DNA of 64,000 nucleotides, taken from positions 104,265,773 through 104,329,772 of the forward strand of contig NC_080423.1 of the NCBI RefSeq assembly GCF_029873635.1, in the 5' to 3' direction. The notes beneath the pieces are model-generated. The model was not told the origin of the DNA, searched no databases, and saw only the letters and a program-made list of their open reading frames with translations. The stretch comes from Malania oleifera (lineage: Eukaryota > Streptophyta > Magnoliopsida > Santalales > Ximeniaceae). Of this stretch, positions 4,654-64,000 are shown piece after piece (the stretch's first letter is position 1; each line of letters begins with the position of its first letter). Made by a program: the position numbers and the translations under genes.

Positions 4654-4697
<44 letters not shown>

Positions 4698-11592: not shown

Positions 11593-11994
11593 AATTAATC
11601 ATATAATTATCTTATCAAAGATGGGAAAATTGTGCATTGTTACTTCCATAGTTTCTATCGAAGTTTTGCCTAGCAAAACACAAAAAAAGTTTATCCAGGA
11701 TTTCAAATAGGTGGGCCGAACTAATGAACTTGTTGGGGAGAGGGGGGCTGGGCCACCAAATTATATCAGGAGCAATTCTAGGCCTACTTATACTCACTCT
11801 AAAAGCCCACATACCACATTGAGGCCCATTTCAAAACATCCGCCGCTTTGCAAAGTGCAGTCTGTGGTCTTCCCCTCCCCACCTCCTTATCCTCAACTCC
11901 TTACCCCTCTCCTAAACCCTTCTCCTTCCCTCCCTCCCTCCCTTCCCCTTTTTCTCTCTCTCAAATCCCTCCTCTTCCTCTTGCCCTAAGAAGA
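11593..11994 (+). promoter_or_regulatory. Upstream region and 5' UTR of the CP31 gene
   Basis: Only 402 bp separate the LINE tail from the CP31 start codon. No strong TATA box is seen. A long pyrimidine-rich stretch (11866-11980, CT and CCCT runs) lies just before the ATG, a common leader type in plant nuclear genes for chloroplast proteins. An in-frame ATG at 11848 exists, but its product would be low-complexity proline/serine, so I treat it as untranslated. Confidence 0.5.
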
Positions 11995-20300: not shown

Positions 20301-23300
20301 AGGAACATTTGTGAAGTTTGTTAACTTGTCATCTAGAAAACCTGCCTAGTGTTGGTACATGTGGCCTAAAAGAAAAGGCATTAGTTCATGGCATACCTAG
20401 TATAGACGAGTCAATCCGAACTTGACCCGTTTAATAAACGAGTTAGGCGAATTTGGGTTGGATACTCGCCGGGTGGCCTGTTTAATTTGATATATATATA
20501 TATAGTGTGTGTGTGTGTGTATTACATTAAAAAAAATATTAATTAAAGAGATGTACTATTTTCTACATTTTATGTTTTTTTGTTAAGATATTAATAAATA
20601 AAATAAAAAGTGCTATTTTTTTTTAAATGTCACTTTATATGAAATGTTTTAAAAAATTAAAAATAAATAAATTATATTTTTAAACAGATTCTTAACAGGT
20701 ACCCATTTATTAAACGGGTAGTTTTGATTTATATTTTAATCGCCCGTTAGTAAACGGGTCAATCCAAATCCAAATCCAAACTCGTTTAATTCCTACCCGT
20801 TACGACCTGCTCAAACTTGACCCGCTAACCATTTTGCCACCCCTAGGACCTACCGTTTGAAGTATTTTTATTAAATAAAAAAGACTAGATAGGAGAATCA
20901 CATTGGTCCTCAGAAAGAGCAATGTAAAAAATTAGGTCTTGAGAGAGAACTAGCATAGTCCTCCCATCAAATTCTATTCATCTAATGAAAATATTTCAAA
21001 TAATGGATCCTACATCATGTGATTCACATATAATTTAATATGATATAGAAAGATCTAATAGAAAGATCACATCTCTCTTTCAAAAGAATATAATTTTTTC
21101 TTGTGATGGCAACACTTTGGCGAAAGATTAATTAAAGAAAGAAAAAGTGTTGAACGAACTGAAACTCCTGTGCAACAAATTGATTTTGAATTCAAGGATC
21201 TTGAGATGAATGATGATACTAGTGGAATTTGAAATACAAATTGTGGTGGAAAAATGGTCAAAGGCCATGCAACAGGTGACCAAAACCTAGATGACCATCC
21301 ATCTGTACTAAAGGTTTGGACTTCGATAAATATATACTAAGGGTAAGGAAGAAGAACGGAAAATGTTTGTGGACAAAGCCTCCAACAAGGGAACTGGCCT
21401 TGATTTGTGTTAATTTCAATCAAAGAAATGATGTCATTTGCTGAATTATGAGGCCAACAGTGCTACCAAATATGAAGCATGCATAGTTCAGCTCGGGGCT
21501 TTGGGGATTAAGGAGCTAAAAGTGTTTTGAGGATTCTCCTTTGATCATCTATCAAATATGGTAGTAGAAGAGAGGGATAAGTCACTAATGCCTTATTTCA
21601 ATTACCTCAGTGTCTAAGGGATGGCTCAGATAAACCACATTCCACTATTTGCTGAGAAATAAGAAATAGTTTACTCAGTCTTTTGCCATAATTACTGCTA
21701 TAGTTGACATGCCTAATGGAGTAAAGTTTTGATCACTAGAGATAGAATAAAAATTTTATGGTTGATTATTAACCAAAGAAATTCAAAACAACAATTACAT
21801 TCTTGCGCCTTGCTTTTATATTTCTTGACTTTATTTTGTCCTCAAGACGGAATCTATTTATTGATTTATTCTATTGCAATAGATTTGTTGGCAGTTAGCA
21901 TATTGTTTTATGCACCTTGGTGGGATATGTGCTCTTTAACAATATTTTTCCAAATTCATCATATTTTCATATCTGGTGGAGGATAACACAGATAAGTAAC
22001 CTGTATCTTGCCAAGATAGTCTGACAGTCATTCAGTTCTCTCTGATAAATTAGTGGTCAATGGGTGTTTGCTGCTTTTCAGATCATATTGCTTTAAATAC
22101 TTTACTTTTTTTTTTCTTAAATTTTCAGAAGAGAGAATAATACGCACTGAAGGAGGATGAGTCTTCTAGACAAACAAAAGCTACAAGAGAAACATTATGT
22201 TTCTCATAAATGTTTTAAAAGGTGAAAGCATAAAGCGAGGTGTTTTAACCCTTAAGAGGCGAGGATAAGCCTCTTTAGAATTTTATTTTTAGATAAAAAA
22301 AAGATGCAAATAGATTATGTATATTGTTAAAATAAATAAAAAATTAAGAAAATAAAAATATAATGTAAAATAAAATCAAATATAATTTGCAAATTGCTTG
22401 ATGGCCATTTAAAAGTTGCTAGCTTGGAATTCAGCATGTAATCATGATAAGAGATATCTATAACATTACAAAGTTCAAATTGTTTTCAAGATCTAAGAAA
22501 CAACTTTCAATTATTTTGGAAAGGTTGAGGTTAAAGAATTTTAGAAATTAACTCGTATTATGACATATTAAGACATTTTTTTTTATTATATAAATATGGA
22601 GTTCAAATTTCTAGCCAAATCTAACTAACTTGACACACCCAAAATCTGTAAGCCTCGGCTAATAGGGGTGCAAAAGGCATGTCTTTTTACACAAATTCGT
22701 AAGCCTTGGCATTAATGCATTAACCTTGTTGGAATATGGTATTTTGGATTGAGCCTCAAGGTGTTTTAGGCATGCCTTACCTCTGAGGTGGGCCTTGATT
22801 GAGCCTTTTAAAACATTGTTTCTTATTACTCGAGTGTAATTCTAATCATGGTATATTAGACATGTGCACGCATATCCATCAAGAATAGAAGTCGAGCTGA
22901 TGATATAACACAACAATAGACCAAATAAGAGGGTAAAGATAGAGAATGAACTTATTTTCTGTGTATACGTGATTATGCATTTTTCTAGTAATTTGCATAT
23001 GCATGCATGGTGGCTACAGATGTATGAGTGGATCTAGACTCTAGATTGGCAATTTGGCAAGCATTAACTGCATATTAGTTTTTTTTAAATACAAGTATAA
23101 TGCATTTACAGGTGACATGAGAAGCGCGTCTTTTCATCATTAGAACCATGATCTTCAGTGGAAGACAATCTTCTTAGAAGTGACTGTCCTCTCTCCCATG
23201 ATACATTAATGTTGTTATGGATCCCAGCATTTTTTGGTGATTTTGTCAACTTTTCTGATGGCTCCTTTGCTTTTGGACAGGATTTGGGTGGAAGGCTCTT

Positions 23301-24056
23301 GACTGTAAATAAGGCTGCTCCTAGAGGATCACGGCCAGAACGTCCCCCTCGCATATTTGAAAATGCTTTCAGAGCCCATGTTGGTAACCTACCATGGGAC
23401 GTAGACAGTGGTCGCTTGGAGCAGGTTTTCAGTGAACATGGTAAGGTTGTGGACGCTCGAGTAGTATATGACAGGGAGTCTGGCCGTTCACGTGGTTTTG
23501 GCTTTGTAACGATGTCCACCGAGACTGAATTGAATGATGCCATTGCTGCTCTTGATGGGCAGGTAAATATGCTTTGCCCTTTCTTGAATAGAACTAAATC
23601 AGGGATTTGGGTTCTCTGTAACTGGGAGCAGTGTAGATATATGAGGTTGAAGTTCATTTTGTTTCGTTTTTTAATTCATAGATGTCCAATTGTCCATCAA
23701 GGTTATCCTCATAGACTGGTGTGGTTCTAATGACAGGCGGAGTAGAACCTATGAACACATGTGGGCATGTCAAAAAAATGCCAACTTTAATTTCCCATCG
23801 TTTGTTTAAGTTAAAAAGAACTAGCTTTTTATTATTGTTCAACTCCATCAAAATTGTCAGAGAACTGAAAAAACAATTTGACATTTTCATAATTCTTTAA
23901 AAACTCAATGAAAATGATAATTATGCCTTTAATTTCCCAAAGGGCCCTAAACATTTTCTATGACTAACCTTGTTGGGTGTTCTGTTGCTGCAGACTTTGG
24001 AAGGGAGGTTAATCAGAGTAAGTAAAGCTGAGGAAAGACCAAGGCGCTCGTTTTGA
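11995..24056 (+). CDS. CP31: 31 kDa chloroplast ribonucleoprotein (CP31-type, two RRMs), 4 exons
   Basis: Exons: 11995-12573, 12956-13057, 23281-23562, 23994-24056, all with GT-AG introns and continuous frame, giving 341 residues. Residues 1 to about 75 are Ser/Thr/Pro-rich and fit a plastid transit peptide. Residues about 84-160 are acidic (Glu/Asp rich), the acidic domain typical of cpRNPs. RRM1 (about 163-240) has RNP2 LFVGNL and RNP1 [11 protein letters not shown]2 (about 257-335) has RGFGFVTM again, but its RNP2 reads AHVGNL where the family normally has an aromatic residue (YVGNL). The protein ends PRRSF. The family is known to bind chloroplast transcripts in the stroma, stabilising mRNAs and aiding C-to-U editing; that role here is inferred from homology. 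Intron 2 is 10,223 bp, very long for this family. The gene converges on the PIMT gene. Confidence 0.93.
13058..18130. other. CP31 intron 2, left part: no recognised gene
   Basis: Intron sequence without a convincing coding frame. It contains a G-rich stretch (13315-13345), a (CT)n tract (14242-14295), short TA runs, and ORFs under 120 codons that match nothing I recognise. Old unclassified repeats are likely, but none has clear ends. Confidence 0.4.
14242..14295. repeat. (CT)n microsatellite in CP31 intron 2
   Basis: An almost pure CT dinucleotide run of about 54 bp. Confidence 0.95.
18130..21720 (+). mobile_element. Strongly decayed Ty3/gypsy (Tat-like) element within CP31 intron 2
   Basis: Pieces of a gypsy polyprotein can be recognised in order on +. 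There is a G-patch-like segment (about 18840-18990), a pre-RT region, RT with KKDGRVRMC near 19635 and GLKDA-like residues near 19875, and RNase H residues near 21470 (KYEAC, LGIKEL). This motif set resembles the Tat/Athila group. It is a fossil broken very many times, with no LTRs I can place, which implies considerable age. A MITE has inserted into it (20395-20850). Confidence 0.65.
20395..20850. mobile_element. hAT-like MITE rich in ACCCGTTTA/AACGGGT motifs
   Basis: Short non-coding element ending TTTTGCCACCCCTAGG, a terminus common to plant hAT MITEs (inverse TAGGGGTGGCAAAA). The left end is degenerate. Internal repeats of AACGGGT and ACCCGTTTA plus TA and GT runs (20490-20520) are characteristic. 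It is inserted within the decayed gypsy element. The superfamily call rests on the terminus only, and no clean 8-bp target duplication was identified. Confidence 0.5.
22209..22817. mobile_element. Candidate inverted-repeat element (MITE) in CP31 intron 2
   Basis: The left end AATGTTTTAAAAGG (22209-22222) is mirrored by CCTTTTAAAACATT (22804-22817). Next to both ends are GAGGC/GCCTC words. The middle is AT-rich and non-coding. The size of 609 bp fits a MITE. No target duplication is convincing, so the superfamily is unknown. Confidence 0.45.
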
Positions 24057-31985: not shown

Positions 31986-34469
31986 TGTGATGACCCAAAA
32001 ATATATATATGATTAAAGCACAATAATAATAAAATAATAAAAATAGTCATTGAGTTAATATCAATACAGAAGTGTTTTTCTGTAGGATCCTTGATTCCAT
32101 GTTTGATGCCTAAGAAAGACCTTGTCTAAGCGAGTGCTCAAAGACCATTGCGGCTCAGTCGCTCCCTGGAGGTCGGCCTGGTCAAAATGGAATTTCATAG
32201 GATAAACAGGATAGACACTGTTTGTACACGTAAATAAGTATATATATATATATAATAGTGTTTTGACAGACATAATTTGTAGAAATATATAATAAGATGA
32301 TAATAATATAGGTATCATATGTGGGGCCCACAAAACTATGTGGGGTCCACATGAGTCCCGGAACTACAAGACACTGTTTATATACGTAAATAAGTACATA
32401 AAATAATATTTTGACTGATATAATTTGTAGAAATATATGATAAAATAATAATAATATAGGTATCCTATGCGGAGCTCACAAGACTGCGTGGGGCCCACAT
32501 GAGTCCCGAAACTGTATGGAGGTTTACACGAGTTTCAAAGCTATGTAGGATGCATAAAATCGTATAAGAGTTATTCAAGTTACGTAGGATCCATTCGGGT
32601 CTCGAAGTTGTGTGGGGCCCACATGAGTTTTCAAAATTTAAATTTAATTCTTGTTCAAAAATAAATAATAAAATCAATAAATACTAAAAATAGTTTAAAA
32701 GTAATAACAATGATAATAATAATAATAATAATAATGATTAAGAAAAATAATAAAATAATAAAATAATTAATTAACTAATTGATTAATTAATTAGGTAAGT
32801 AGTTAATTAAAAATTTATTTAATGAGAATGGTGGCAAGCACTCCTACATGGCCTCCATCCCCATCCCATACTCAACCCATACCTTGCCCATCCCTTGCCC
32901 ATTCTTTAATTTTAAAAAAATTATAATTTCACCAAGTTCCCCACACTTTAAAAATTCCATTTCTTCCCCAAAATTTTCCTATAAATAGGGAACTCTCAAC
33001 CTTCATTTTTCACAACAATTTTCTAAGGAAGAGAATGATTAGTGAGTGAAAGAAATTATGGTGGAGAGAGAATTTTTGAGTAAGTTCTCAATCACCCACT
33101 CTTTCCGATCTCATTCTTAGAGATAGTTACAGTATTCGTAAGGAAAAAGGTAAGTAAATTTTGATTATGTTAGTTTTTTTTTTAATTTAAAATTTATACT
33201 CGAGTTTATTTTATAAGTAAATTTCAATTATTTTAATTAGTTTCACAAAATTTATATGAGTTTATTTTTACGCATATTTAATTATATCAGTTCTATCTTT
33301 AATATACTTGCATCTATTTTTTGGTTAATAAATGTTCTAATCCCCTCGGGTAAATTTTCAGCATTTCTTTTTATTCAAAAATAAAATTATATATATTTTT
33401 AGCACAAAAATTGTGTGACATGAGTTTATTTTTATGTTGCATTTTTTTATGAAAATATGAGTAAAGATGAGATTTTTACGATATTATTTTAAATTACATA
33501 AATTATAATAAGATGATTTTAAAACCCCTTATGGCAACGAAAGTTCAAAGTTACAGATGCTCGGTACCACAGCTTAAAGTTTATACTGATTAGAGTGCAC
33601 CCACACTGTTTACAGAGTGGTTATTTATGTTAGTGGATTTCTCCTGAGTGCACACCTGGTTCCGAACTAGAATTTAATAAAGAAAATCTCACTTAAAGTT
33701 TACGTACGTTGATTTAGTTTGGTCGGCCAACTAGATAAGTCTAGTTTTCGGACCGCACAACCCAGTCATGGGGGTAAACATGACTTACGACAAACAGGCC
33801 TAAGGGTGGTTTTTATAATATATATTTATATATAGTTAATTACGTATATAAAGTCACTGATGATTTGAAAAAAAGTGTAAGTTTACATGAAAAGGATCAT
33901 TCTAGTGCTTAAATGACGATCTAAAGAAAACGTATAAGAAAAAGTATATGTATATTTATTATTAAATATTTATATAGTTTTAAAGTTAAAAGTTTAATTT
34001 AACAGTTATAGTATATGATTATAAAATTTTACTGTTATAGTTGATGGTAAAAGTTTTATACAGAAATTTTTAAATTTATATTTATTCTAGAGACAGTTTT
34101 GAAGTTATAATATTAAATATTGTTTTACGAAATTTTAAAAAAACTCATTTTGGCCACACACTAATAATAATCTTATTTACTTACTGAGCGTCGTTTCGCT
34201 CCAATCATATTTTTATTTCAGATAACTCTGAAGAGCATGTTGGAAATCAGGCTTAACAAGCACGCGGGTGGGGATAGAAAAATAAAGATTGATTAGAAAT
34301 ATTAGCATGATGCCAGATATTTATATTGTGAAATTTTTCTTTTTTAAATAAATGATTGTAATATGGATAATTAGCGCTTTGGTTTAATAACAATTGAGTT
34401 TATTTGCTTCTATTATAAATCAGTAGTAAAAAGTTAATATCCCAGACCCCTCGGGGTCGGGGTGTTACA
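31986..34469 (+). mobile_element. Solo LTR, second LTR family, perfect 5-bp target duplication
   Basis: It starts TGTGATGACCC and ends GGGGTGTTACA. It is flanked by GTTCG at 31981-31985 and 34470-34474, so a complete solo LTR of 2484 bp. A TATA box TATAAATAGGG lies near 32981. Upstream, at 32315-32640, the words GTGGGGCCCACA and ACATGAGTCCCG repeat, and a short AAT run lies at 32713-32740. The same family forms the LTRs of the element 35353-42504. The general TGTRATGACCC...GTTACA frame resembles the Ty3 LTRs at the window edges. Confidence 0.92.
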
Positions 34470-34474
34470 GTTCG

Positions 34475-35352
34475 AGCGAAATTCTCCTTAATTCATAGTG
34501 TTGGATCAATTTTTTGGTCGAAAATTTTCTATTTCTCATTTCTCATGAGTCAAGGAATAAGATCCCAAATTACTCCTAAATATCTGCTCTATAATAATTG
34601 AAAAATGGAAAGTGTAGATATTTCTTTAATACTCCCCCTCAAGTTGGAGCATGGAAATCCGTAATGCCCAACTTGTGTGATAAATCCAGGAAATGTTGTT
34701 AGGTTAGGCCTTGGTGTATGCGTGTTAAATTCATTGTAAGTATAAAGTGTGAGCTGGACACTTTGGTGCCTTTCCCCTTCTAATATTCTACTACTAAAAT
34801 TTGTGCATTCATTTGAGATAGTACCATAGTTGTCTTTTATGACTTTATGTCGTACATGTTACATTAATATGTGACCGAGTTATTTATTATTGTGCACGGG
34901 GTTGTTGGGCTTATTTTTGGAAGTGAAAACTCTACTTCAGGCGAAGATAGATAAGCTACTCTTATATGTTCATGATTATTTGTAAGGGATAATTTTTTTC
35001 CATTGAACTACTGGAATACATGAAAGGCCAAGAACTAAATGTCATATGAAGTAAAGTGGCAAATTAATTACTGTTTGTTCTTGTGTTGTAGGTTGTTATA
35101 TTTTATAACAATAATTTATTTTAAAATTGATTGCAATAAATTTTCAGAACTAAAATGTATAAAAGGCCAGTGAAAAGACAATAATTAAATGCCATGTGAA
35201 GTAAATCTTCTAAATTTTTTAATTTTCTTAGTCTGAATTATATTACACCTCTTGTGAAATACTGGATTGAGTTGCCATACTGGTTGTGAATGATGCAGAT
35301 TTGTGTATTGCATGCTGGTAGTGAATCTAGGTTCTCGCATGCTCTTATATGT
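34475..35352. other. Repeat-derived DNA between two LTRs, probable copia trace
   Basis: The words ACTCCCCCTCAAGTTGGAGC (34631-34650) and GCCCAACTTGTGTGA are typical of the gag-leader region of some copia elements read in reverse. About 35040-35190 contains two related copies of a segment with GGCCA and AATGCCATGTGAAGTAAA words. No gene was seen. Confidence 0.35.
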
Positions 35353-37138
35353 TGTAAGGACCCGAATCCGAGTGAGTTCCTGCATATAAATTTTTTAGCG
35401 GAGATCAAATAAATCTAAATGATTTTTATTACCATAACACTAATTAGCTTTATTACAAATATATGTCTCAATTATTAAAATGCAAATTTTAAAATTCTAT
35501 AATACACAAAAGTATTCTAAATTGTATTATGCTAAATTTTTATTCTACTCGACTCTTTCTACTCTCGCCCATGTACTTGCTACTCCAGATTTCTGGTACG
35601 CTTCTCAAAATGATCTGAAATATAAAATAATGATTGGGGTGAGACGATGCTCAGTAAGTAAGTAAGATTATTATTAGTGTGTGGCCAAAATGAGCTTTCA
35701 TATTTTCGTAAAATAATATTTAATACTATAATTTCAAAAATACTTTTAAAATAATTGTAAATTTAAAAATTTCTGCATAAAAACTTTTGTCATTAATTAC
35801 AACAGTAAAATTTTATAATCATATACTATAACTGTTAAACTGAACTTTTTAACTTTTAAAATTATAACTATAATACTCAATCATGTATATATAGATATAT
35901 ACTTTTCCGTATTAAATCATTAACTAGGCACAAGAATGCCCTTGTTCACATAAATATATAATTTTCTTTCAATTCATCAATAACTCTATATACGTAATTA
36001 AATATGCATATACACGTACTGTAAAAACCACCCTTAGACCTGTTAATCGTAAGTCATGTTTACCCCCATGATTGTGTTGTGGGATCTGAATACTAGACTT
36101 AATTGGCTGGCCGGCCAAACTAAATCAACGTACATCATCATTAAGTGAGATTTTCCTTATTAAACTCTACTCTGACCTATGTGTGCACTCGAGAGAAATC
36201 CACTACTATATAAAATCACTCTGCAAATAGCATGGGTGCACTCTGATCCGTTTAAACTTTAAGTTGCGGTACCGAGCATTCATAATTTTCTGTATCGTTT
36301 GAGCCATAAGGGGTTTTAAAAATATTTTTATTATATAATTTGTACAATTATAATAATATCATGAAAATCTCATTTTTACTCATATTTTCGAGAAATACAC
36401 AACACAAAAAAAATTCATCTCATCTAATCTTTACTCATTTTTTTGTAAAATATGCAACCTAAAAATAAACTCATGTCACACAATTTTCGTGTTAAAAATA
36501 TTTTCTTAAATAGAAATTAATGATGTAAAATACCCGAAAGATTTAGAATATTTCTTAACTCAAAAATAAATGCAAGTATATTAAAGATAAAATTAGTATA
36601 ATTAAATATGTGTAAAAATAAAATCAGGAGAATTTTATGAAATTAACTAACATAATCGAAATTTACTTACAAATAAATTTGGGTATGAATTTTAAATAAA
36701 AATCTAACATAATCAAATTTATTTACTTCTTCCTTTACCTTGTGCTACGAACACAACGAATATCTCTAAAAAATGAGATCGGAAAGAGCAGGCGAGTATG
36801 AATTTTAATTATAGTAAAAATTCTCAGTTCACCATTAATTCTTTCACTTACTAATCCTCTCTTCCTTTGAAATTTTTTTTTTGTAAAAAATGAAGGTTGA
36901 GAGCTTCTTATTTATAGAAAAATTTTGGAGAAGAAAATGAAATGTGTACAAGTGTGGGAAGAGGGGCGAAATTAAATTTTTTTTAAAATAAAGGAATGAC
37001 CATGGATGGGTTAGGAATGAGATGAAGATAGAGATGGAGGTCATATGGGAGAAATGGGAGTGCTTGTCGACACTCCCATTTAATTAATTTTTAATTAATT
37101 ATTTACTTAATTAATTAATTATTAATTATTTTTTAAAA

Positions 37139-37191
<53 letters not shown>

Positions 37192-37421
37192 TTTAAGCTA
37201 TGTTTTATTTTTTTTAAAAAAATTAAGTTTGAATTTCGAAAACTCATGTGGGCCCACACAACTTCGAGACCCAAAGTGGGTCCTCCGTAACTTCAATAGT
37301 TCTCACACAGTTTTATAAGCCTTACATAGTTTCGGGACTCATGTGGACCCCACATGACTTCAGAACTCATATGGACCCCACATGACTTCAGAACTCATAT
37401 GGGCCCCACATAGGGTACCTA

Positions 37422-37470
<49 letters not shown>

Positions 37471-37780
37471 TTACTATGTATTTCAACAAATTATGTCTGT
37501 CAAAACACTATTTTATGTATATGTACTTATTTACGTGTACAAAGAGTGTCTACCCTATTTATCCTATGAAATTTCATTTTGACCAAATTGACCTCCAGGG
37601 AGCGACTGAGCCACAAAGGTCTTTGAGTACTAGCTAAGACAAGGTCTTTTTTAGACATCAAACATGGAAGCAAGGATCCTACAAACAAACATTTCTATAT
37701 TGCTATTAACTTAATGACAATTTTTATTATTTTATTATTGTTATTATGCTTTAATCTTATATATATTTTTGGGTCATCAC
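35353..37780 (-). repeat. 3' LTR of the minus-strand element
   Basis: On + it starts TGTAAGGACCCG and ends GGGTCATCAC before the polypurine tract. It contains ATT microsatellites (37139-37191 and 37422-37471), GGCCCACA/ATGTGGACCCC words, and a TATA-like word on - near 36910. It belongs to the same family as 31986-34469. Confidence 0.85.
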
Positions 37781-38087
37781 GTTCTCCCCTCCTTATAAAA
37801 ATTTCGTTCTCAAAATTTGTTAATTTAAAATGAGTACTGTATAATTGGTTGCGCTATTTAAAAGAGTAAATTGATGAACGATTCAGCTAAGTCTTAGAAT
37901 AGATTGAGGGTCAATTTGGCGAAATATTTTATTTTGGGAACTGAAGTGTGAATCGTTGGTCTAATAGGGGTTGAAATAGAAAAGAAATTTAAAAGATGTG
38001 GAAAATGATAATTATATATATATATATTATACATGTCTTATAAATTAAAAAAATATATATAAAATAAAATGAAACGAAATCTGGCCT

Positions 38088-38788
38088 TTAGAGCCTTAAC
38101 TCAACGTCAACATCTATTGAAGTGCTAGCGGTGTCATTGCTAACTACCTGGGTTATTTCTTAGCGGAGTTGACCTCTTGTAATATCGCTTGCTTGGGTCG
38201 AAAAAAGGGAGAAAACACTCGTTTCCCTTGTGGCCTTCAGTGTGGATGCTTGTAACGAGCCATTGGTGGCCTGTACATGAGTTTCAATGCGTATTGGATC
38301 TCTTGACAATGGTAGAGTAGGCCAACATTATCCGAAACCCTTAGTGTGGTGACTGCGATGCTGCCATTGTAAGGGGTATGACTCATTGGTGTGATGTTAG
38401 TTGTAAGCTTCATAGACGGAATATTGTCGATAGGGATGAGGGTACAAGTGGTTGGGAAAATGGCAGGGGCACTACTTGGGGCGGTGGTGGCGGAGAAGGT
38501 AAGATGGATAATTGGTGGGGTAGTAGTTGAAATAGTGGCTTCTTCAACTGATCCCCACTTACGCTTACGGTTCTCAAACCAAAAGCGTACATTTCTCGGC
38601 TTGATTGGATCATACCGTCGAAGTCGTGCTGCAAGCAAGATAGCCCACTCCACAGAAGGGAGTTCCCCTTGACTGTTGCGGAAGGCCTCCTCTAAAATCT
38701 CCAGCTACGCCTTGTTGGGTTTCCATCTTTAGATTGGTGATCTAGTGCTGCTCTCAGCAACTTGGGGAGTTGGGTGATTTGACAACAT
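38088..38788 (-). pseudogene. WOX: WUSCHEL-related homeobox (WOX)-like gene copy, intronless, broken
   Basis: On - an ATG at 38788 opens a frame whose translation has a WOX-type homeodomain. It shows RWKPN at the start, LEILEEAF in helix 1, LAARLRRYDPI in helix 2, and NVRFWFENRKRKW as recognition helix. RW.P, L.IL, L..Y..I and NV.xWF.N are family hallmarks of WOX proteins; the usual YWFQNHKAR is altered. A Thr/Pro/Ser-rich tail follows. Close to the end, in another frame, lies DVELRL before a stop (38088-38090), similar to the EAR-like C-terminus of WUS. No introns are visible. About three interruptions make it non-functional as read. WOX proteins are plant transcription factors of stem-cell niches and organ initiation. 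It sits inside, and in the same orientation as, the LTR element, so a captured host transcript is the likely origin. Confidence 0.65.
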
Positions 38789-38903
38789 TTTCCAGTAATG
38801 AGACAACCAAGAGAAAAGTTAGGAAGAACTAATCTTTACAAATTGAAATGTGGTTGTTAAAGATGATAGAAAGCTGTGATGCTTAGAGTTCGAGGAGGGC
38901 AGA

Positions 38904-38916
38904 CCCTTTTTATAGG
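38904..38916 (-). promoter_or_regulatory. TATA-like box upstream of the WOX-like copy
   Basis: The - strand reads CCTATAAAAAGGG about 115 bp before the WOX-like ATG. This is a good plant TATA spacing for a leader of about 85 bp. It suggests that promoter sequence was carried along, or arose, with the gene copy. Confidence 0.4.
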
Positions 38917-38939
38917 GGAAGGGCCGCGTGTTGTGGAAA

Positions 38940-39340
38940 TCGAGAGAGAGCGACGTGATCCGCGAGAATCGAGAGAAAGCGATGCGTGTCACGGATATCG
39001 AGCGACGCATTTTGCAAAAATCAAGGGAGAGCGACGTTTGCCACGAGAATGGAGAGAGAGCGACGCATGTCACGGATATCGAGCGACGCGTTTTACATAA
39101 ATCGAGGAAGAGTGACGTGTGTCGCAAGAATTGAGAGAGAGTGACGTGTGTCATGGATATCGAGCGACGCGTTTTGCAAAAATCGAGGGAGAACGATGTG
39201 TGTCGAGAAAATCGAGAGAGAGCGACGTGTGCCTCAAGTAATGTATTTTTCAAAAATCGAGGGAGAGTGATATATGTTGCAAAAATCAAGAGAGAGTGAC
39301 ACGTGTTGCAGAAATCAAGCGAGCGACACGTATTGCAAAA
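38940..39340. repeat. Minisatellite, 81-bp unit made of three 27-bp subunits
   Basis: The word ACGGATATCGAGCGACGC recurs at 38991, 39072 and 39153 (one base changed in the last), an exact 81-bp period. Inside each unit the motif ATCGAGRGAGAGCGACG recurs about every 27 bp. Both periods are multiples of three, so long ORFs appear across it on both strands without being genes. It lies directly upstream of the WOX-like copy. Confidence 0.85.
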
Positions 39341-39414
39341 TTTGCGGACTCAAGGTTCTTTTCATGTTTCTACATCTTTATTAATGGTTTAACTATAATT
39401 AATCTCATCCTTAG

Positions 39415-39575
39415 GTCACCACTTGGGTGGGTGGCCTAGTGGTAAGGAACCGGTTGTGCATCCATGTGATCGCGGGTTCGGGTTCCCATTATGCCAAAGT
39501 GGTCTCATGCCTTGGCCTTGCTTTAGGGGTAAGTGAGTTGTAGTCGATAATTTCCATCCATGAGGCTTTTTTTTT
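39415..39575 (+). mobile_element. tRNA-derived SINE inside the minus-strand element
   Basis: Box A-like GTGGCCTAGTGGT (39431-39443) and box B-like GGGTTCGGGTTCC (39474-39486) have tRNA-like spacing. A non-tRNA body follows, ending at a T run (39569-39578). No acceptor stem is present, so it is a SINE rather than a tRNA gene. Confidence 0.65.
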
Positions 39576-39579
39576 TTAC

Positions 39580-39599
<20 letters not shown>

Positions 39600-39616
<17 letters not shown>

Positions 39617-39970
39617 TAAAATTTAACTTGTATTAACTTTTATAAATTTATACAAAATAAAAATTAAAGATTCCGTCAAAATTTGTACTCCTAAATCAAA
39701 CTTGGATACTTGATGGGAATTGAATATGCAATGAATATATATATATTCATATTTAACTTACACATGCTAAGAGATTTTTTTTTTGAATTTAAATATAATA
39801 TAATAACATTTAAATTATATTTAATTCCTTATAAACTAATACAAAATTAAAATTAAAGATTTCGTCAAAATATATATTCTTCAATTAAGTTTGAATGTTT
39901 TAATGAGAATTGAATATGTAATGTAAAAATATAGATATTTATATTCAACTTGCACATGTAATGGAATTTT
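39600..39970. repeat. Two diverged direct repeats of about 190 bp
   Basis: AATTAAAGATT(C/T)CGTCAAAAT and GAATTGAATATG(C/T)AATG each occur twice about 195 bp apart (39660 and 39855; 39718 and 39907). The sequence is AT-rich and non-coding. Confidence 0.6.
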
Positions 39971-40532
39971 GGGTAAATTCAGATTTCAGAATAAACCATT
40001 TGTTCATATTTATTTGTATGTATAGCACTTCCAAACCCAGTAGGGTCTAATGTGTTCTTATATTTTTAGTGAAAATAATAAAAACAAAAATAAATAAATC
40101 TAGGATATTATTATATTATTATATTTATATATATGAAAATTTTAAATTATTAATGCACCTAATCTAACAATTAATTATGAGTCATCAATATGAGTACGTG
40201 TTTTTACAAACATAAATAACATATTTAACTTAATTAACGTATCTTCAATAATACTATCATTTTTTTTAGAGAATATAAAATTGTTATCTGTCCTTGGAGC
40301 CTTCACGTTAATCTCATTTTCTCAAATGTTACTATCTTTAGGATCTATTATTAAACAATGATCAAATGTTATTTTAAAATCGTAAATCTATTATTAACGT
40401 ATAATAATATAACAAACTAAAATAAATATTTTAAACTACTCAATTCTACCCAAATCATGTTTTATATTTAAGTTCTAGTAAAATCTATATGCTAGAGTAT
40501 GCAGAACCTATATCCTATTCTCTGATACTAAT

Positions 40533-41958
40533 TGTAAAGACCCGAACTCGAGTGGGTTCCTACAAATATAAATTTTTCAACGGACGCAAATAAATCTAAA
40601 TTATTTTTCTGTATAAAAACTTTTACCATCAACTACAACAGTAAAATTTTATATTCATATACTATAACTGTTAAAATGAACTTTTTAACTTTTAAAACTA
40701 TAACTATAATACTCAATCATGTGTGTATATATATAGATATATACTTTTCCGTATTAAATCATTAACTAGGCATAAGAATGCCCCTATTCACATAAATATA
40801 TACTTTTCCTTCAATTCATCAATAACTCTGTATATGTAATTAAATATGTATATACACGTACTGTAAAAACCACCCTTATGTCTGTTAATCGTAAGTCATG
40901 TTTACCCCTATGACCGGATTGTGCGATCTGAAGACTGGACTTAACTGGCTGGTCAGTCAAACTAAATCAACGTATATCATCATTAAGTAAGATTTTCCAT
41001 ATTAAACTATGCTCCGACACAGGTGTGCAGTTAGAAAAAATCTACTACCACATAAAATCACTTTGCAAACAGCATGGGTGCACTCTGATCTGTTTAAACT
41101 TTAAGCTGCGGTATCGAGCATTCATAATTTTTTGTATCGTCTGAGGAATAAGGGGTTTTAAAAATATTTTTATTATATAATTTGTACAATTATAATAATA
41201 TCATGAAAATCTCATTTTTACTCATATTTTCGAGAAATATGCAACATAAAAAAATTCAACTCATGTAATCTTTACTTATATTTTTGTGAAATATGCAACT
41301 TATAAATAAACTCATGCCACACAATTTTCGTGTTAAAAATATTTCCTTCAATAGAAATTAATGATGTAAAATGCTCGAGAGATTTATAATATTTCTTAAC
41401 TAAAAAATAAATACAAGTATATTAAAGATAAAATTAGTATAATTAAATATGTGTAAAAATAAAATTAGGAGAATTTCATGAAATTAACTAACATAATTGA
41501 AATTTACTTATAAATAAACTTGGGTATGAATTTTAAATAAAAATTTAACATAATTAAATTTACTTACTTTTTCTTTTATCTTGTGCTGCGAACACAACGA
41601 ATATCTCTAAAAAATGATATCGAAAATAGTGGGTGAGTGAGAATTTTAATTATAGTAAAAATTTTCACTCCACCACTAATTCTTTTACTCACTAATCCTC
41701 TCTTCCTTTGATTTTTTTTTTTTTTTTGTAAAAAATGAAGGTTGAGAGCTTCCTATTTATAGAAAAATTTTGGGGAAGAAAATTGAATTTGTAAAGGTGT
41801 GGGGAAATGAGTGAAATTATAATTTTTTAAAATTAAGGAATGAGCATGGATGAGTTAGGTATGGGATGGGGATCGAGGTCATATGGGAGAAATGAGAGTG
41901 CTTGTCGACACTCCCATTTAATTAATTAATTAATTAATTTTTTTAAAAAATTTTTAAA

Positions 41959-42028
<70 letters not shown>

Positions 42029-42504
42029 GTTATTATTTTTAAGTTATGTTTTATTTTTATTTATTTATTTTTTAAAAAATTAAGTTCGAATTTTGAAAAC
42101 TCATGTATGCCCCATATGATCTTGTGGGTCCCACACAACTTCAAGACCTAAGTTGATCCTATGTAACTCCAATAGTCCTTATACAGTTTATTGAATCCTA
42201 CACAATTTCAGGACTCATGTGGACCTCACACGACTTCGGGACTCATGTGGGCCCCACGTGTACAAGCATTGTCTACCTTATTTATCCTGTGAAAATTCAT
42301 TTTGACCAGACCGACCTCTAGGGAGTGACTGAATTACAATGGTCTTTGAGCACTCACTAAGACAAGATTTTTCTTAGGCATCAAACATGAAATCAAGGAT
42401 CTTACAAAAAAATATTTCTGTATTAATATTAATTTAATGACCATTTTTATTATTTTATTATTGTTATTATGCTTTAATCTTATATATATTTTTGGGTCAT
42501 CACA
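40533..42504 (-). repeat. 5' LTR of the minus-strand element
   Basis: On + it starts TGTAAAGACCCG and ends GGGTCATCACA. Compared with the other LTR it lacks about 0.4 kb near its U5 side. A long AAT run followed directly by an ATT run (about 41961-42029) forms a perfect inverted repeat. Confidence 0.85.
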
Positions 42505-43057
42505 TATATAATCTCTTTTTCAGGTAAAATATTTTTTTTGGAAGTGTTCACTTTACAGTCGGCATGTTGCCGAAATTTTGTTAAAAACTTTTTCAAAATA
42601 TAAGATAATAGATGTTGAAGTATATAACTGTATAAGCACCAAATGAGATAAGTAATGTTCTTGGAACCACAAATAGCATGTATATGTTTGAGTTGGCCGC
42701 AGTTGATCACTTGACCACATTCACACGTGTTTTAATAAGTATGGGTGAATATTTTCTCATAATGTTATTGTTAAGTATGCCCCTTCGAAAAATTTTTTGT
42801 TATCAACATAAATCTTAAGGTTTCATCTTTCCTGGCCAATGCCTCCGCGAACGAAGCCTTGGGTTGCCTCAAAGCATGGCCACTCGCCACGATGCGTTGC
42901 CAAGCGGCAGAGGTTCTAGGACCCACCAAGGGGAGAGTCTTCTTCTAGCGGTCAAGCAGCCCTGAGTGATTACGAACAGATTTCAGATGAGACGAGAGCA
43001 CCAAGGGTGACTTTTGAGGATGTGCAGTTGCCCTCGGCACGTTCTGCTATGCCACCC

Positions 43058-57530: not shown

Positions 57531-58183
57531 GTGAATGTAACGACCTGCTATTTATTATCCAGTTCTGTTTTTTTTTTTTTACTATGAAATTTATAATGCT
57601 CTAATACCATGCTGTAACGACATGCTATTTACTTTCCAGTTCTGTTTTTTTTTTTTTTTTTTTTTCTACTATGAAATTTATAATGCTCTGATATCAATTG
57701 GATTAAACCAAACCAACAACCTAAGCATCGAGAAGTTGAATTCATATAAACACAACCATATATAAATATGCACAATACCAGAGAGCTACAGTATTCCCAA
57801 ACTATACATATATGACTGTTTCCCAAAATACCCTCAACTGGACTAGGGCTATACAAAAATACTCCCAAAAATACTCACTCGACTGATAGGGTGGTGCCGA
57901 AACCCCTTTACCTGCGAGCCTGATCTGCTGGCCTACTTGGATCGCCTGAAAAATGTTAGTTTGATAGGATGAGATGACGTTCAGTGAGATGAAATATGCT
58001 ATTACTAGCGTGTGGCAAATGAGTTACAATACTATGAAAAATATGTTTCTATATAATCATGTATAACTGAATCTGTAAATACAGTACAAATAATATAAAC
58101 CACCATTTTTTTGCATGTTACTTAACACATCTATATTTTAGGTTTCTATACATAATACTTTTAATATATATACATATATTCCT

Positions 58184-59291
58184 TGTGAAAGGACCCGAAA
58201 AATAATGATATTTAAATATTAAAGAGAGAGGGAAATGGAAACAGAAACAGAAGGAGGCAGCAGGCTTCGTCGACGACATTGCATTTTGGATGGAATAATA
58301 CGAAAATTTTACACAAGGCCTCGTTGACGAACACAAGGAGTTCGTCAACGAGCTCGTAAGTATCGTCGACGAAGCCACGCCTCATTGACGAGAAGATGCT
58401 GAGAGGGGTTTTTGGACAGTTTGAAATTCGTCGACGAAATTATTGAAGGACTCATCGACGAGGTGACGTGTCTCGTCGACGAATCCAACTCTATAAATAG
58501 TGAAAACCCAGATTTTTATGAAATTTCAGCACAGGAAATCTTCTTTTCTCTCTCTCTACGTCCCTTTCTCATTCTCTCTTCGATTCCAGGCCCATTTCTT
58601 GCCGAATTGAAGATCTGAGGCTGCCACGACACTCCTGGCGAAGTTCTCTGCAAATCTGCCGGAGCTAGTCATTGGAGAAGTTGATTTGGATTTCGTTCCA
58701 ATCTCACGGTAAGGTATTTTATTCAGTATTTTTTTCCCTCAGTTGTGAGAAATACAATACACGAAGAAATACTTATGTTTTGTTCTGGAGGAATTGATTT
58801 TTCAGGGTGTCGAGTGGAGAACTCTGTGGGTATAGGGCCAGAATTTAGTAGGGGCTTGACTTTTCAGAGTTAAATAAAGTACGGGAAATATGCTATGCTA
58901 GGGTTTTAAGAATATTAACAGAGCTTTCATAGATACATATATACCAGTTATTATGCAGTTTTTACAGAACAAATGTTTTAATGTTGTGTGGCCTGAGTAG
59001 ATATTTTCCTGATGAAAAATGTGTACAGTACTTCAGCATATCAAGTTATATAGCATGTACATACAATTATTCACAGATGATTAACAAATAAATTTATATA
59101 GATTTTATTCAGTTCAATATATATCATAGTTTTTTATAAAATGCTATGTTTTCCTGAATACCATAACACACAGTTTATAAAGACAGATTATACAGTTATA
59201 GCATCGAGATGCTACAGTTACTCAGATTTTACAGTATTTACAGTACAAAATTATAGCGTTATGGTTATTTTGGAAACATGATGAAAACAGT

Positions 59292-59348
<57 letters not shown>

Positions 59349-60233
59349 TGTACTTATATATAATATTAGATCCCTGTGGAGATATTACAAACAGATATAG
59401 TTTACAGAGCACGGCATCGTTGCTATATATAGATAGAGTGTAACCACATATCTCAGATGGTGTGACGATACTGTCTAATCGTGCTCGGAGAGGATGCAGC
59501 TCCCAAATACACTGAGTAGAGGGGGCCGGTTAGACGAGGTAGCAGCCAGTCCCGCGCTTAGGAGTGGATGCAGTTTGACCGGCCTGAGGTAGTGCAGAGT
59601 ATGATGACTTACCTAGAGGGCCGACCAGGTTAAGTCCCGCCTACGAGCTGCATAACCCTGTTATGAGGGGTCAAATCATGACATACATAGTCCTAGGGAA
59701 AGAACACAATTATGTATATGTATACAATTTTATAGTTTTTATTGTATATAGTATGTTATAGCAGTATGAATGATAGAAAGTTTAGATGATACAAATGTTT
59801 TAAGTTTTTATACATGTGTTTTATAGATTTGTCAAATCATGCAGTTTTAAATACTATTATTATAATTTTATGACTCGATCGCCACACACTAGTAATAACA
59901 TATTTCCACTTACTGAGCGTCGACCTATCCCATTACTTTAACATTTTTTTCAGGTGAGCCAGCTAGGCGAGCAAATCAGGCTCGCGAATAGAGATCCCTT
60001 GGTCACCCTAGTTATAGGGTAAGTTTTGTGTAGGGTTTTGTATTTTTGGATAGTTAACACTGGAGAGAAAGATGTATTATGTAGCTATGGTTGAAATACT
60101 GAATTCTGGTATTGTATATACATGTATATGTGGTTATGAGATTTATGTTTTCCACTGCATAGGGGTGCCCATTATATTCAAAAATTAGAGTAATTTATTT
60201 AAAAAAAAATGAAAAAATTTTGAGGATGTTACA
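58184..60233 (+). mobile_element. LTR nested in opposite orientation inside 57536-61662
   Basis: It starts TGTGAAAGGACCC and ends GGATGTTACA, 2050 bp. It is the same family as 4305-6348, by its opening, its GTCGACGA array (58265-58490) and TATAAATAG at 58493. The host LTR resumes with matching sequence on each side. The flanks TTCCT and CCCTA overlap only imperfectly, so the target duplication has decayed. A (TA)n run lies at 59298-59346. Confidence 0.85.
58262..58502 (+). promoter_or_regulatory. Palindrome array plus TATA box of the LTR promoter
   Basis: About eight copies of TCGTCGACGA or one-base variants (TCGTTGACGA, TCGTCAACGA, TCATCGACGA) lie at irregular 20-45 bp spacing. The last reads GAGGTGACGTGTCTCG with an ACGT core (bZIP-type), followed by TCGTCGACGAATCC and the TATA box TATAAATAG about 15 bp on. 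The same order occurs in the sibling LTRs. Confidence 0.6.
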
Positions 60234-61740
60234 CCCTATTTCTGTGAAATTGTGCATACATAATAATAATTGAAAACTTCCCTAGACGGATAACTGTATG
60301 TCATGATTTAACCTCTCATGAAGGGTTGTGCGACCCGTAGGCGAGATTTAATCTGGCTGACGTACTAGGATAAACCACTATACTCCGTGAGTCTGATCAA
60401 CCCCCCTCAACCCATATCTGATGGGGAGTCTTTCCACACGTGGGCACTATGCGATCAACTTATCTATCACGTATTATCTAAATAGGTGGTTGCACTCTAT
60501 ACTGTATATAACAATGGTACTGTGTTCTGTAAACTATATCTATAATGGTCCATCAGGGTCTGATACTATATAATGTATCTCTATATACAACTATCTATTT
60601 TACCATAATTCTGTAATAACTGGATTAACCACAACGCTGTAGTAAACTATATCTATATTAATTGTGTTTCTGAAATTAACTGTAAATCTGTATGTCATGG
60701 TACTGTAAACTGTATAATCATGGTATTCTGTAATTGCTATAAAACATATCCGCTGTCTGTATATTCTGTAAAACATAACTCTGAAAAATATTGTAAAGCA
60801 TGTTTCTATACTATATTTATATTCTCAAGCCACATAGTAATTAAAACATATTATTTATAATTGATAAACTGTATAAAGTTCTACTGTGAATTATAATCTG
60901 GTAAAAATATACATTTCATAATGAAAATCATTTTAGAACTGCCTAAAATAGCATATTTCCCTTACCCGACTCCTGCTAAAATCCCAGACCGTGACGGGTT
61001 TTACACCCGTAGGTTCCTCACTCAACACCCTGAAAACCATATATTCCAGAACAAAATATTACTATTTCTACGTCTACAACATTTCCTACAACTGTTGGAA
61101 AGCTAAATTTTTCTTAAAAGACCTTACTCTGAATCTAGGATGAAATCCAACTTTGTCCCACCGACGATTCGCTCCGGCAGACTTGAAGAGAACATCTCCA
61201 GGGGCGTTGTGGTGGCCTCAAATTGTCGATCTAGTGACTAATGGGGCCGAAATCGAAGAGAGAAGGGGGAGAAATTGAAAAGGAGGGAGAAAGTAAAGTT
61301 TTTACTGAAAATTTTGCTTAAAATTCGAGTTAAACACTATTTATACACTGACCTTCGTTGACGAGTCACATCATCTTATTGACGAGGTCATGAAGAAAGG
61401 TCATCGATGAACACCATCTCCTCGTCGACAAATTTTAGAGTTTAGTAACAACCTCTCAGTATCTTCTCGTTGACGAAATATACCCTATGTTATCCTCGTC
61501 GACGAATCCCCTTTATTAGTCAACGAGTCCTTGATTAATTTCCTGGGTTATTATACAGCCTCTTAGCATCTTCTCGTCGATGAAATATACCCTCCTTCTA
61601 TTACTGTTTCCATTTCCCTACCTCTTTATTATTTAAATCCCATTATTCTTTAGGTTGTTACAGTGAAGATATACTTGATTGTGAGCATATGCTTCCTTAT
61701 TACTCCAAAGTGTCGTAATCTCTTTATTTCTCCACGTAGC

Positions 61741-63862
61741 TGTAGTGACCCTAATTTTCTTTAACATAAAATGTAATATAATGAATAAATGGTCAACCCG
61801 AACCCGTGGGTAACGGGGACACCTATCAATCATAGCGGAAGCTTAAGTAGCAGTAAAATAAAATCTCAATCATTCAACAGTGAAACATAATACCAGAGTT
61901 ATTTACATTTCAAAAATACTATATTTATTTACGATCTTTCAAAAAGTCAAAAATGACACTAGGACCTTACAACAAAAATCTTCTAGTCCTAGTTCAATGC
62001 TTACCCTTCTAGTAGGGAAGCTCCACTCACTCAACGATGGCCTTGACCTGCTGGTTTCTCTGTGTTTCCTGAAAAATGTGTTAATGTTGGGGGTGAGACA
62101 CTTCTTAGTAAGGGAAAATAAACTAAATACAGCTGTGTGACACATGAACATTTAATGCAATCATATATATACAGTACAATTCATTTTTCCGTACACATTC
62201 ATCGTCGTAAAATAAATCATCATAAACTTTCATATTTACTCGTAAATGATATCATAAATAATGCATCTGTTATACTGATAGTACTGAAATTACTGAAAAC
62301 TTACCTAGGATGAATAGTTAGCTAATGTAATGTATTACCCCCCATGACGGGTTGTGCAGCTTGAAGGCGGGACCTGACAATGGCTGGCCGACCATTGCCG
62401 AAATCAAATATGTCTGTAAGTACGATGGGCCCGCCACACCCTGGTCTGGAATTCCAGGTAGACGTCCACACTTTACTGAAAGCCACATCGACTACCCATC
62501 TCCCATCCCCTCGTGGGATGGTTAGCACTAATCTGACATAGATATTTGATCTACACATATAGTTACGGTATCGAGCCCTGAACTGAACTAAACTAACATC
62601 CTGGTTGTAATAACATATAATACATGAACATACATAACATCATCATGGCCTCGTGCCGAAAACATAGATACGACCTCGTGCTGAAATCATAAATACATGG
62701 CCTTACGCCAAAATTGTAAATACGGCCTCGTGCCGATAATATAAATACATGGCCTCGCTCCAAAATCATAAATACGGCCTCGTGCCGATAATATAAATAC
62801 ATGGCCTCGCGCCAATAACATAAATACGTTTCAGGTATTTACATTCTGAAAATAACTCATTTTTCACATATTCGTCAAACTTAGTATAACATAACTCGTC
62901 TTTTCAAAACACCTGGAAATATGCTTCCTCGTAAAATCAATTATATCTTAATTCACTTCACATAAAAAATAATGTTCATGCCACACATATGCCGTTTAAA
63001 GTCATGCTTCATATTCTAAAAATCATCATTTCTGGCATCTCGTACATACATATACATTTCTATTATAATAGCAGTATTTTCCAAACATACGTTTCATATG
63101 TAATATACAAAGATAGCATAGGCTTTTATGAAAATAAATGTGCTCATAATTAATAATAACATGCATGGAAAATAACTGCTTTAGTTTATTCCCTTACCTA
63201 GTTACTGAGAAAGCCCCCAAAATATCCTAGGCTAACCCCCGTATGACTTGCTGATCAATACTCTGAAATTCAAAACCCCCAGTACTAAACATCAGTATTT
63301 TCATGCGCACATCAATTTCTATAACTACCAAAAAGTCTAGTTTGGCTTAAAAAGCCTTACCTCAGCCTAGGGATGATTTCCAACTTCGTTTCCCCAACGA
63401 TCTGCTACAGCAAACTTATAGGGAACTTTGCGAAGAGCGAGGTAGTCTCAGATCTTTGATTCGGCGTAAAACTAGCCCAAGATCGAAGAGAGAGAGTGAG
63501 AGGGCCGAAGAGGAGAGAGAGAGAGAGAGTAGAGAGGAAGCTTCAAATGATGTTTAAAATCGGATGTTTCATATATATATATATAGACAGCAGAATTTGT
63601 CGACGAGCCTGATTTTTGTCGATGAGTTCTTCATAAATTTCGTCGACGAGACCTATATTCGTCGACGAAATTCAGGCTATCTCAGAACCCTTCTCGGTAT
63701 TTTCTCGTTGACGAAACCCTGTGTTCATCGACGAAATCTTTAAAGCCTTCGTCGATGAAACTCTGTGTTCGTCGACGAAGCTTGGCAGCTTCCCTTCTTT
63801 TCCCTTTTTCCAATTTTTCTTTCTTTATTATTTAAATTTCATTTAAAATTCAGGTCGTTACA
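61741..63862 (-). mobile_element. 3' LTR of a Ty3/gypsy element running off the right edge
   Basis: On + it starts TGTAGTGACCC and ends GGTCGTTACA, followed directly by a polypurine tract in reverse (TTCTCCCCTCCTT). It is 2122 bp. Palindrome array at 63598-63785, with a TATA-like ATATATATA just beyond it on - (63572-63585). The 139-170 bp segment near the U5 end resembles the end of the LTR 3171-7424 (words GAACCCGTGGGTA). Confidence 0.9.
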
Positions 63863-64000
63863 TTCTCCCCTCCTTATAAAATTTCGTCCTTGATATTCAT
63901 GTAATTCATCATCCCTTATGAGGCAAAAATGGTCTACTTATTTTATTACTCACCCTCACTTATGGTGGAGGAATACCGTGGTTACAACTCAAGTTCTAGG
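63863..64000 (-). mobile_element. Internal 3' end of the right-edge Ty3/gypsy element
   Basis: It is the reverse complement of 3032-3170 at the left edge in layout and wording (for example GGAGGAATACCGTGGTTACA against its counterpart near 3045). It is non-coding sequence between pol and the polypurine tract. The rest of the element lies beyond the window. Confidence 0.88.

Follow-up and report, generated by a model that had tools for sequence, protein, structure and literature searches.

Retroviral trans-activators such as Tax and Tas act on their own long terminal repeat (LTR), and LTR elements of plants can carry host genes. Gene capture of this kind is well documented, with 672 genes in rice and 1343 in sorghum given in passages of PMC3726574, maize Bs1 named as an LTR gene transduction in a passage of PMC7264820 and a review in PMC13317346; the word 'homeobox' is absent from the main text of PMC3726574 and PMC13317346. 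Other plant LTR elements carry an additional open reading frame (ORF), as described in passages of PMC7264820 and, for Retand, PMC11963269, whose main texts name no homeodomain. Here we describe a 64,000-nucleotide stretch of the Malania oleifera genome (C7:104265773-104329772, hereafter the window) containing an LTR retrotransposon that lacks gag-pol and carries a homeobox gene of the WUSCHEL (WUS) type. The locus resembles known LTR gene transductions in that a host-type gene without introns lies in the sense orientation between LTRs, primer-binding site (PBS) and polypurine tract (PPT), and its copies may stay open under selection; it is unlike them in that the single long ORF of a family with more than 500 genomic sites encodes a WUS-type transcription factor. 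With additional-ORF elements it shares an ORF other than gag-pol, whereas those elements (Retand/Ogre type) keep gag-pol; the window element is without it, and for its ORF a homologue among host genes is evident. Among the matches listed in a search of open-licence papers, no WUS or WOX gene was reported in an LTR retrotransposon, which agrees with the statement in the initial annotation that such retroelements are rarely described.

Our reading is that a WUS-type homeobox gene was taken up by a non-autonomous LTR retrotransposon of Malania oleifera, which then spread it across more than 500 sites; taken jointly with the origin and function proposed below, we give this a probability of roughly 0.57. 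Members of the family share LTRs, a PBS, a PPT and target duplications, have one long sense ORF with the layout of WUS and include young LTR pairs, while purifying selection on the ORF and the keeping of WOX core residues above others are established in part. In the window, one minus-strand element consists of an LTR at 35353–37781, an internal region at 37782–40532 and an LTR at 40533–42504, the two LTRs being direct repeats. Its main parts are as follows.

35348–35352, no strand: left copy of the target-site duplication, TATGT, pairing with TATAT at 42505–42509 in 4/5 positions
35353–37781, minus strand: 3′ LTR, 2429 bp, 87.9% identical to the 5′ LTR over 1919 aligned columns (Kimura two-parameter distance, K2P, 0.134)
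37782–37794, minus strand: PPT-like tract AAGGAGGGGAGAA adjoining the 3′ LTR, AAGGAGGGGAGAT in several young copies
38088–38788, minus strand: broken WUS-type homeobox ORF, usually 229–230 residues in intact copies, with its C-terminal part in another frame
38088–38108, minus strand: EAR-like C-terminus DVELRL (38108–38091) plus stop, off-frame here and in frame in intact copies
38193–38216, minus strand: WUS-box relic VFSLFSTQ (VLSLFPTQ in copy L009), off-frame in the window copy
38558–38728, minus strand: homeodomain relic RWKPNKA...FWFENRKRK, located with Pfam, PDB and tblastn with 119 WOX proteins
40520–40530, minus strand: PBS relic TAGTATCAGAG, TGGTATCAGAGC in young copies
40533–42504, minus strand: 5′ LTR, 1972 bp, 0.46 kb shorter than the 3′ LTR, chiefly through one gap near its own 3′ end
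42505–42509, no strand: right copy of the target-site duplication, TATAT, 4/5 against TATGT

The 3′ LTR of the window has one end base changed from the TGTGATGACCC..TTACA ends of the element. We take the PBS relic to match initiator tRNA-Met; since the motif occurs four times in the window with ≤1 mismatch (chance mean 0.94), the evidence for it is its place and not its rarity. A six-frame Pfam search of the 2751-base internal region found no gag-pol, and PF00046 was the sole Pfam match. These results bear out the initial annotation in its central claim, a WOX-type homeobox inside a non-autonomous LTR element (LTR pair, PBS, PPT, 4/5 target duplication, no gag-pol), as well as in the PBS and PPT relics that it named (40520–40530 and 37782–37794) and in the sense orientation of the gene, a minus-strand ORF in a minus-strand element.

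Read on the minus strand from the ORF start at 38788, the window copy gives 19 residues, a stop and then the homeodomain; stops lie at 38731–38729 and 38707–38705, and the homeodomain frame ends at 38239–38237. With X at the stops, the homeodomain matches PF00046 with 29.7 bits (E 5.9e-7), its best solved structures are WUSCHEL (6ry3, E 5e-7) and STENOFOLIA, and in the alignment with STENOFOLIA it carries the extra loop residue of WUS. The best place in the window for the 119 WOX proteins in tblastn is the homeobox (E 1e-11), followed by places at E 5e-5 (an ATT repeat) and 1e-4. A protein search returned one relative, P0001 (LOC131144967, Malania), which is 81% identical to the window copy over 89%, and a broader profile reached 3527 proteins, among the best 120 of which P0001 alone was close (377 bits, next 101). 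Chance similarity as the source of the homeobox match is ruled out by the Pfam, PDB and WOX tblastn results and by this relative, and the WOX-like homeodomain of the initial annotation is upheld. Its description of an intronless WUS-type gene fits the intact copies, in which the ORF is uninterrupted, but not the window copy, which is broken by stops and a frame break. The DVELRL end, likewise, is accepted for the family, where it is in frame in intact copies, and rejected as the end of the window copy's own ORF. The family is large and has spread recently, and the window copy is one of its older, dead members.

The genome searched comprises 1.494 Gb in 510 contigs (a passage of PMC10199050 gives the published assembly as 1.5 Gb on 13 pseudo-chromosomes, with its scaffold N50 at ~112.6 Mb). 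A homeobox 24-mer from helix 3 with ≤2 mismatches occurs at 516 genomic sites, against 0 for the reversed control, so that the family has many copies, as the initial annotation had considered, and the segment is not unique to this locus. From the best 150 of 656 candidates in a PF00046 search of the genome, 101 were treated as candidates for the family, the majority having open frames of 200–260 codons. Of these, 46 were followed through in sequence (26 with 9.9 kb each and 20 as 821-bp ORF regions); L015 proved to be a different gene and was set aside, so that 45 copies remained, 25 of them with flanks. An LTR pair surrounds the homeobox gene in 14 of the 25 flanked copies (6/6 in the first six), with internal regions of 2.79–2.99 kb and LTR K2P of 0.009–0.110, and the same segment thus recurs between the same LTRs elsewhere, as the initial annotation had asked; in the other 11, no such LTR pair was located within 9.9 kb, or other repeats only. 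The LTR limits of L009 and L012, two of the 14, are blurred by neighbouring repeats. The direct LTRs have TG..CA-type ends (TGTGATGACCC..TTACA). Among the 13 copies with both end motifs, 5-bp target duplications, each scored as the best among candidate ends, are perfect in seven (L009, L011, L013, L014, L016, L019 and L024), 4/5 in L022 and L030 and poor in L034 (3/5), L028 (2/5) and L012 (1/5), with no value for L025. Young copies have the PBS TGGTATCAGAGC and the PPT AAGGAGGGGAGA.

A further sample was chosen without regard to the homeobox and consisted of the 40 top-ranking matches to the PBS-side region. At least 20 of these (window included) have a listed homeobox 1.4–4.4 kb downstream; the other 20 may have an unlisted homeobox or be homeobox-free. 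When eight other elements were scanned, the homeobox gene, with 161 codons in L024 and 230 elsewhere, was the single long sense ORF and no other long ORF was found besides it, which sets the family apart from the Retand/Ogre type. Gypsy RNase H/integrase pieces of the window match four fetched loci. They fall outside the LTR limits in L022 and L031, and may fall inside or outside the element in L027 and L029, for which no limits were located.

Homeobox copies also lie 5.3–5.8 kb apart, on C1 (68237775/68243404/68249039 and 29240964/29246345), C2 (C2:65969336/65974670/65980001 and C2:95942160/95947525), C3 (C3:123248764/123254108), C6 (C6:84607386/84612975) and C7 (C7:96281010/96286776). Because this spacing equals one LTR plus one internal region, they probably form tandem LTR-internal-LTR-internal arrays. 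A tandem array with a period of ~66 bp stands beside the L009 element (L009:8222-9901) and again before its 5′ LTR (L009:110-363), and this element is inserted in a satellite. At C8:90178064-90178528, a homeobox-tail match, known from the search match only, lies inside a 1069-codon open frame that may represent expanded 27-codon repeats or a fusion ORF.

The WUS-box and EAR motif of WOX proteins are defined in passages of PMC5977200 and PMC6305195, and WUS is described in a passage of the latter as mainly a repressor. A full ORF, running from a start through 227–240 codons (usually 230) to a stop, is present in 22 of the 45 copies, a count that is not a genome-wide fraction, the copies having been ranked by homeodomain score; L054, with 243 codons, is a further one. 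In 21 of the 25 flanked copies, the ORF is preceded by an in-frame stop at a distance of 6 or 23 codons. The homeodomain, of WUS type, occupies residues 20–77. Of the 24 stop-free copies, 17 have a WUS-box-like LxLFP after it in the aligned position and all 24 have a C-terminal [DEN]LRL end, a layout as in WUS and WOX5. In shuffled tails of one copy, LxLFP arises anywhere in 0.26%, a [DE]LxL end in 0.06% and both together at 5e-6, for motifs that were picked after seeing the sequence. A structure model of P0001 has a three-helix homeodomain with a predicted local distance difference test score (pLDDT) above 90 (mean 59.5 overall), and its top 11 PDB matches in Foldseek are WUS or STENOFOLIA chains at E 0.008–0.05, none below 0.001. 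In what we take to be the canonical homeodomain numbering, W48, F49, N51 and R53 are kept across copies. The family thus resembles the WUS/WOX5 subgroups (modern-clade WOX) in homeodomain fold, most core residues, LxLFP, C-terminal LRL and their order, and is unlike WUS in its homeodomain identity of 20–26/57, its mostly changed positions 47, 50 and 54, its uninterrupted ORF and its multicopy state in a retroelement; the comparison covered the homeodomain, WUS-box and EAR end, with the acidic region of WUS outside it.

Malania WUS (P0020, on C1) lies in three exon blocks (residues 1–149, 148–186 and 183–331), with introns near residues 149 and 185. Where it has these two introns, the element ORF reads straight through, without a break between the homeodomain and the EAR end. 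A spliced transcript would look like this, and we infer such a transcript as the donor. An intron-bearing gene of the kind sought as parent therefore exists, but the homeodomains of the 24 stop-free copies are only 20–26/57 identical to it, and it is not singled out as the parent. Using columns that are invariant across WOX proteins, which we defined with eight non-WUS WOX references, the 24 copies keep 12–14 of 16 invariant columns versus 7–13 of 41 others (Fisher p 1e-6 to 0.001). When WUS was allowed to drift neutrally to 38–46% homeodomain identity, 169 codons stayed open in 0.7–1.2% of trials; because so few frames survive such drift and the WOX core columns are kept, the reading frame was probably guarded during divergence, either in the element or in a host paralogue before capture. 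Clusters of WUS-like pieces, mostly 75–87% identical to Malania WUS, occur at C1:44.56-44.82 Mb, C13:48.34-48.53 Mb and on C435. They run exon by exon, several with stops, the C1 cluster lying 0.8–1.1 Mb from the true WUS gene, and apparently constitute a second, separate multiplication of WUS in the Malania genome.

We read the constraint on the ORF as real but moderate. In a codon model, omega for the whole ORF was 0.717 (p 0.0026) in the 24 stop-free copies and 0.764 (p 2.5e-5) in the 45 copies. On the internal branches of the latter it was 0.628 (p 0.0016), and 0.435 (p 0.014) for the homeodomain, and allowing two ratios did not improve the fit over a single one (p 0.13 and 0.32). Residues 78–230, which were not used in choosing copies, gave 0.678 (p 0.0036) in the 24 copies. 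The whole ORF is stop-free in 24 of 45 copies, against a neutral mean of 1.3, and 1 of 300 simulations reached that number. Nei–Gojobori (NG86) ratios were 0.435 overall and 0.262 in the homeodomain, with neutral means of 0.746 and 0.673 (0 of 150 simulations each); by part, the observed value was reached in 1/150 simulations for the C-terminus, 11/150 for the linker and 60/150 for the N-terminus. These ratios look stronger than the codon model and are given supporting weight only.

As a mechanism, we propose that a spliced WUS/WOX5-type transcript would have entered the element via reverse transcription, by template switch or read-through, with gag-pol presumably supplied in trans by an autonomous element. 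The protein would enter the nucleus, bind AT-rich homeodomain sites and, as WUS does, recruit TOPLESS through its WUS-box and EAR motifs. The element could benefit from action on its own LTR, where the TATA is preceded by a TTAATTAA cluster, or alternatively from biasing meristem or germline founder cells. The LTR features in question are these.

36909–36916, minus strand: TATAAATA, predicted LTR promoter, in 12/13 LTRs examined
37080–37118, no strand: four TTAATTAA sites, homeodomain-core-like, ~170–200 bp upstream of the LTR TATA

Across the LTRs examined, TATAAATA with 2–4 TTAATTAA sites ~163–213 bp upstream is present in 12 of 13, L022 having neither. Because the LTRs are related by descent, the TTAATTAA cluster is a conserved place and not independent evidence; TAAT overall is not in excess in most LTRs and is so in one window LTR. 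WUS homeodomain structures have been solved on TAAT, TGAA and G-box DNA, according to PDB titles. The working models would be LTR self-regulation or TOPLESS-mediated action on the host meristem. A small-RNA effect on WOX genes, as raised in the initial annotation, is conjectural. That the element carries and selectively maintains its own WUS-type factor, which acts on the LTR or recruits TOPLESS to hold a stem-cell state where insertions reach the germline, is a tentative proposal. Only if the family protein acts on its own LTR would it resemble Tax and Tas, from which it differs in fold and origin.

A number of observations weigh against the reading of a captured and maintained gene. The ranking of copies by homeodomain score favours conserved homeodomains and open frames. 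The homeodomain alone gave omega 0.702 (p 0.12) in the 24 copies, and 20 control frames (wrong frames, antisense, non-coding and LTR, in smaller sets) gave omega of 0.69–1.40, with nominal significance in 3 of 20. Measured in the same set of 14 copies, the ORF (0.774, p 0.022; homeodomain 0.569) falls inside that range, and its divergence there is like that of the non-coding internal region. Residues 78–229 are stop-free in 32 of 45 copies, which 15 of 300 neutral simulations reached, and the missense single-versus-shared contrast was reached by 13 of 200. L024 is young (LTR K2P 0.023) yet already broken. The WUS residues Y47, Q50 and A54 are mostly replaced in the family, and its DNA binding may therefore differ from that of WUS. 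The gene is not strictly the sole ORF, since an antisense ORF of 78–93 codons covers tandem repeats in 4 of the 8 scanned elements and one of 135 codons occurs in 1 of 8, besides a few other short ORFs; no autonomous partner was found among the fetched loci. With WUS references only, the retention contrast is weaker (15–18/30 invariant versus 5–8/27 other columns, p 0.008–0.097). The homeodomain tree asked for by the initial annotation (57 columns, with other WOX references besides WUS) puts the window copy and P0001 on a very long branch from which no parent emerges, and the WUS type of the family follows from structure matches and motifs. Some WOX genes, moreover, are single-exon (a passage of PMC5977200).

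Several of these points would be explained if the gene were a passenger, transduced and hitch-hiking in a successful non-autonomous element, with its ORF intact through recent amplification from an intact copy. The nine full-ORF copies with a dated LTR pair are young (K2P 0.009–0.043), whereas the older dated copies, L022, L030, L031, L032 and the window copy, are broken (0.048–0.134), and the resemblance of ORF to non-coding divergence and the wide scatter of the control frames fit the same account. It has more difficulty with omega below 1 in the 45 copies and on internal branches (p 2.5e-5 and 0.0016), with the 24 of 45 stop-free copies, albeit chosen by homeodomain score, that so few simulations reached, and with WOX core residues kept above others together with the WUS-box and EAR end; we consider it somewhat doubtful. 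Selection might instead have acted in the host, the gene first diverging as a WOX-like paralogue under its own selection and being captured late, so that its core residues record host history. The low homeodomain identity to Malania WUS (20–26/57) beside young dated LTR pairs is as this account would have it, as is the annotated gene LOC131144967, 81% identical to the window copy. Comparison of that gene (P0001) with the window copy is uninformative: 135/169 residues are identical, a value matched in ~10% of neutral simulations run to the divergence of the LTRs, and by part the homeodomain (42/57) and tail (93/112) do not differ (p 0.16). Because P0001 is without the family N-terminus, it is more simply seen as another family copy with a modelled first exon, and a single-copy parent is not known among the matches listed, no search having been aimed beyond those. 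We regard late capture of a host paralogue as doubtful to much the same degree as the passenger account. Two separate LTR insertions flanking an ancestral host WOX locus, without any capture, would account for the divergence of the window LTRs (K2P 0.134) and the 0.46 kb by which one is shorter. The 4/5 target duplication of the window and the PBS and PPT adjoining the LTRs speak against this, and other copies share the LTR-gene-LTR layout with seven perfect 5-bp duplications in a family of 516 sites; we reject separate insertions, named in the initial annotation as a way for the capture idea to fail, as extremely improbable.

The internal region of the window element and its surroundings contain further features.

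38907–38915, minus strand: TATA-like CTATAAAAA, ~127 bp upstream of the ORF start, with the exact string there in 6/25 other copies
38929–39351, no strand: tandem repeats upstream of the ORF with 81-bp spacing (27 codons), seen by self-comparison and at the same place in other copies
39418–39580, plus strand: tRNA-like stretch inside the element, resembling a short interspersed nuclear element (SINE), with A- and B-box-like motifs and a T-run end
31986–34469, plus strand (opposite to the homeobox element): solo LTR of a related kind, with GTTCG at both sides and K2P 0.257 to the LTR at 35353–37781

The TATA-like box of the initial annotation is thus present upstream of the ORF in the window, and its exact string recurs in a minority of the other copies. 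The 81-bp-spaced repeats are open on one or the other strand in several copies. The SINE and tRNA resemblance of 39418–39580 is our assumption, and ARAGORN and Rfam gave no match there. The third LTR, at 31986–34469, is a solo LTR older than those of the homeobox element. ORFs for gypsy RNase H/integrase, with a number of related LTR-like repeats, occupy window positions 1177–2753 and 3028–7145 / 57536–64000, and these repeats have no match to the homeobox element LTRs. At 11803–12579 lies an exon for a chloroplast 28-kDa ribonucleoprotein, which matches Malania oleifera at 100% identity across 75% of the query, against 57% for the species ranked next. A second RNA-binding-domain piece (23152–23730), 11 kb from it, is either a duplicate or that gene's next exon.

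What is new against the literature searched is that a captured stem-cell regulator makes up the single long gene of a family with more than 500 sites; 22 of 45 copies remain readable, and the gene shows signs of selection. If the proposed function is true, a stem-cell gene, once captured, would have given a plant element its equivalent of the retroviral trans-activators, and the question whether non-autonomous elements gain from a host-type transcription factor of their own becomes testable. WUS/WOX annotation, small-RNA and expression work in Malania must allow for the numerous WUS-like ORFs that sit in repeats. This mobile DNA may bring along a developmental switch of its own, intact in about half of the copies sampled by homeodomain score.

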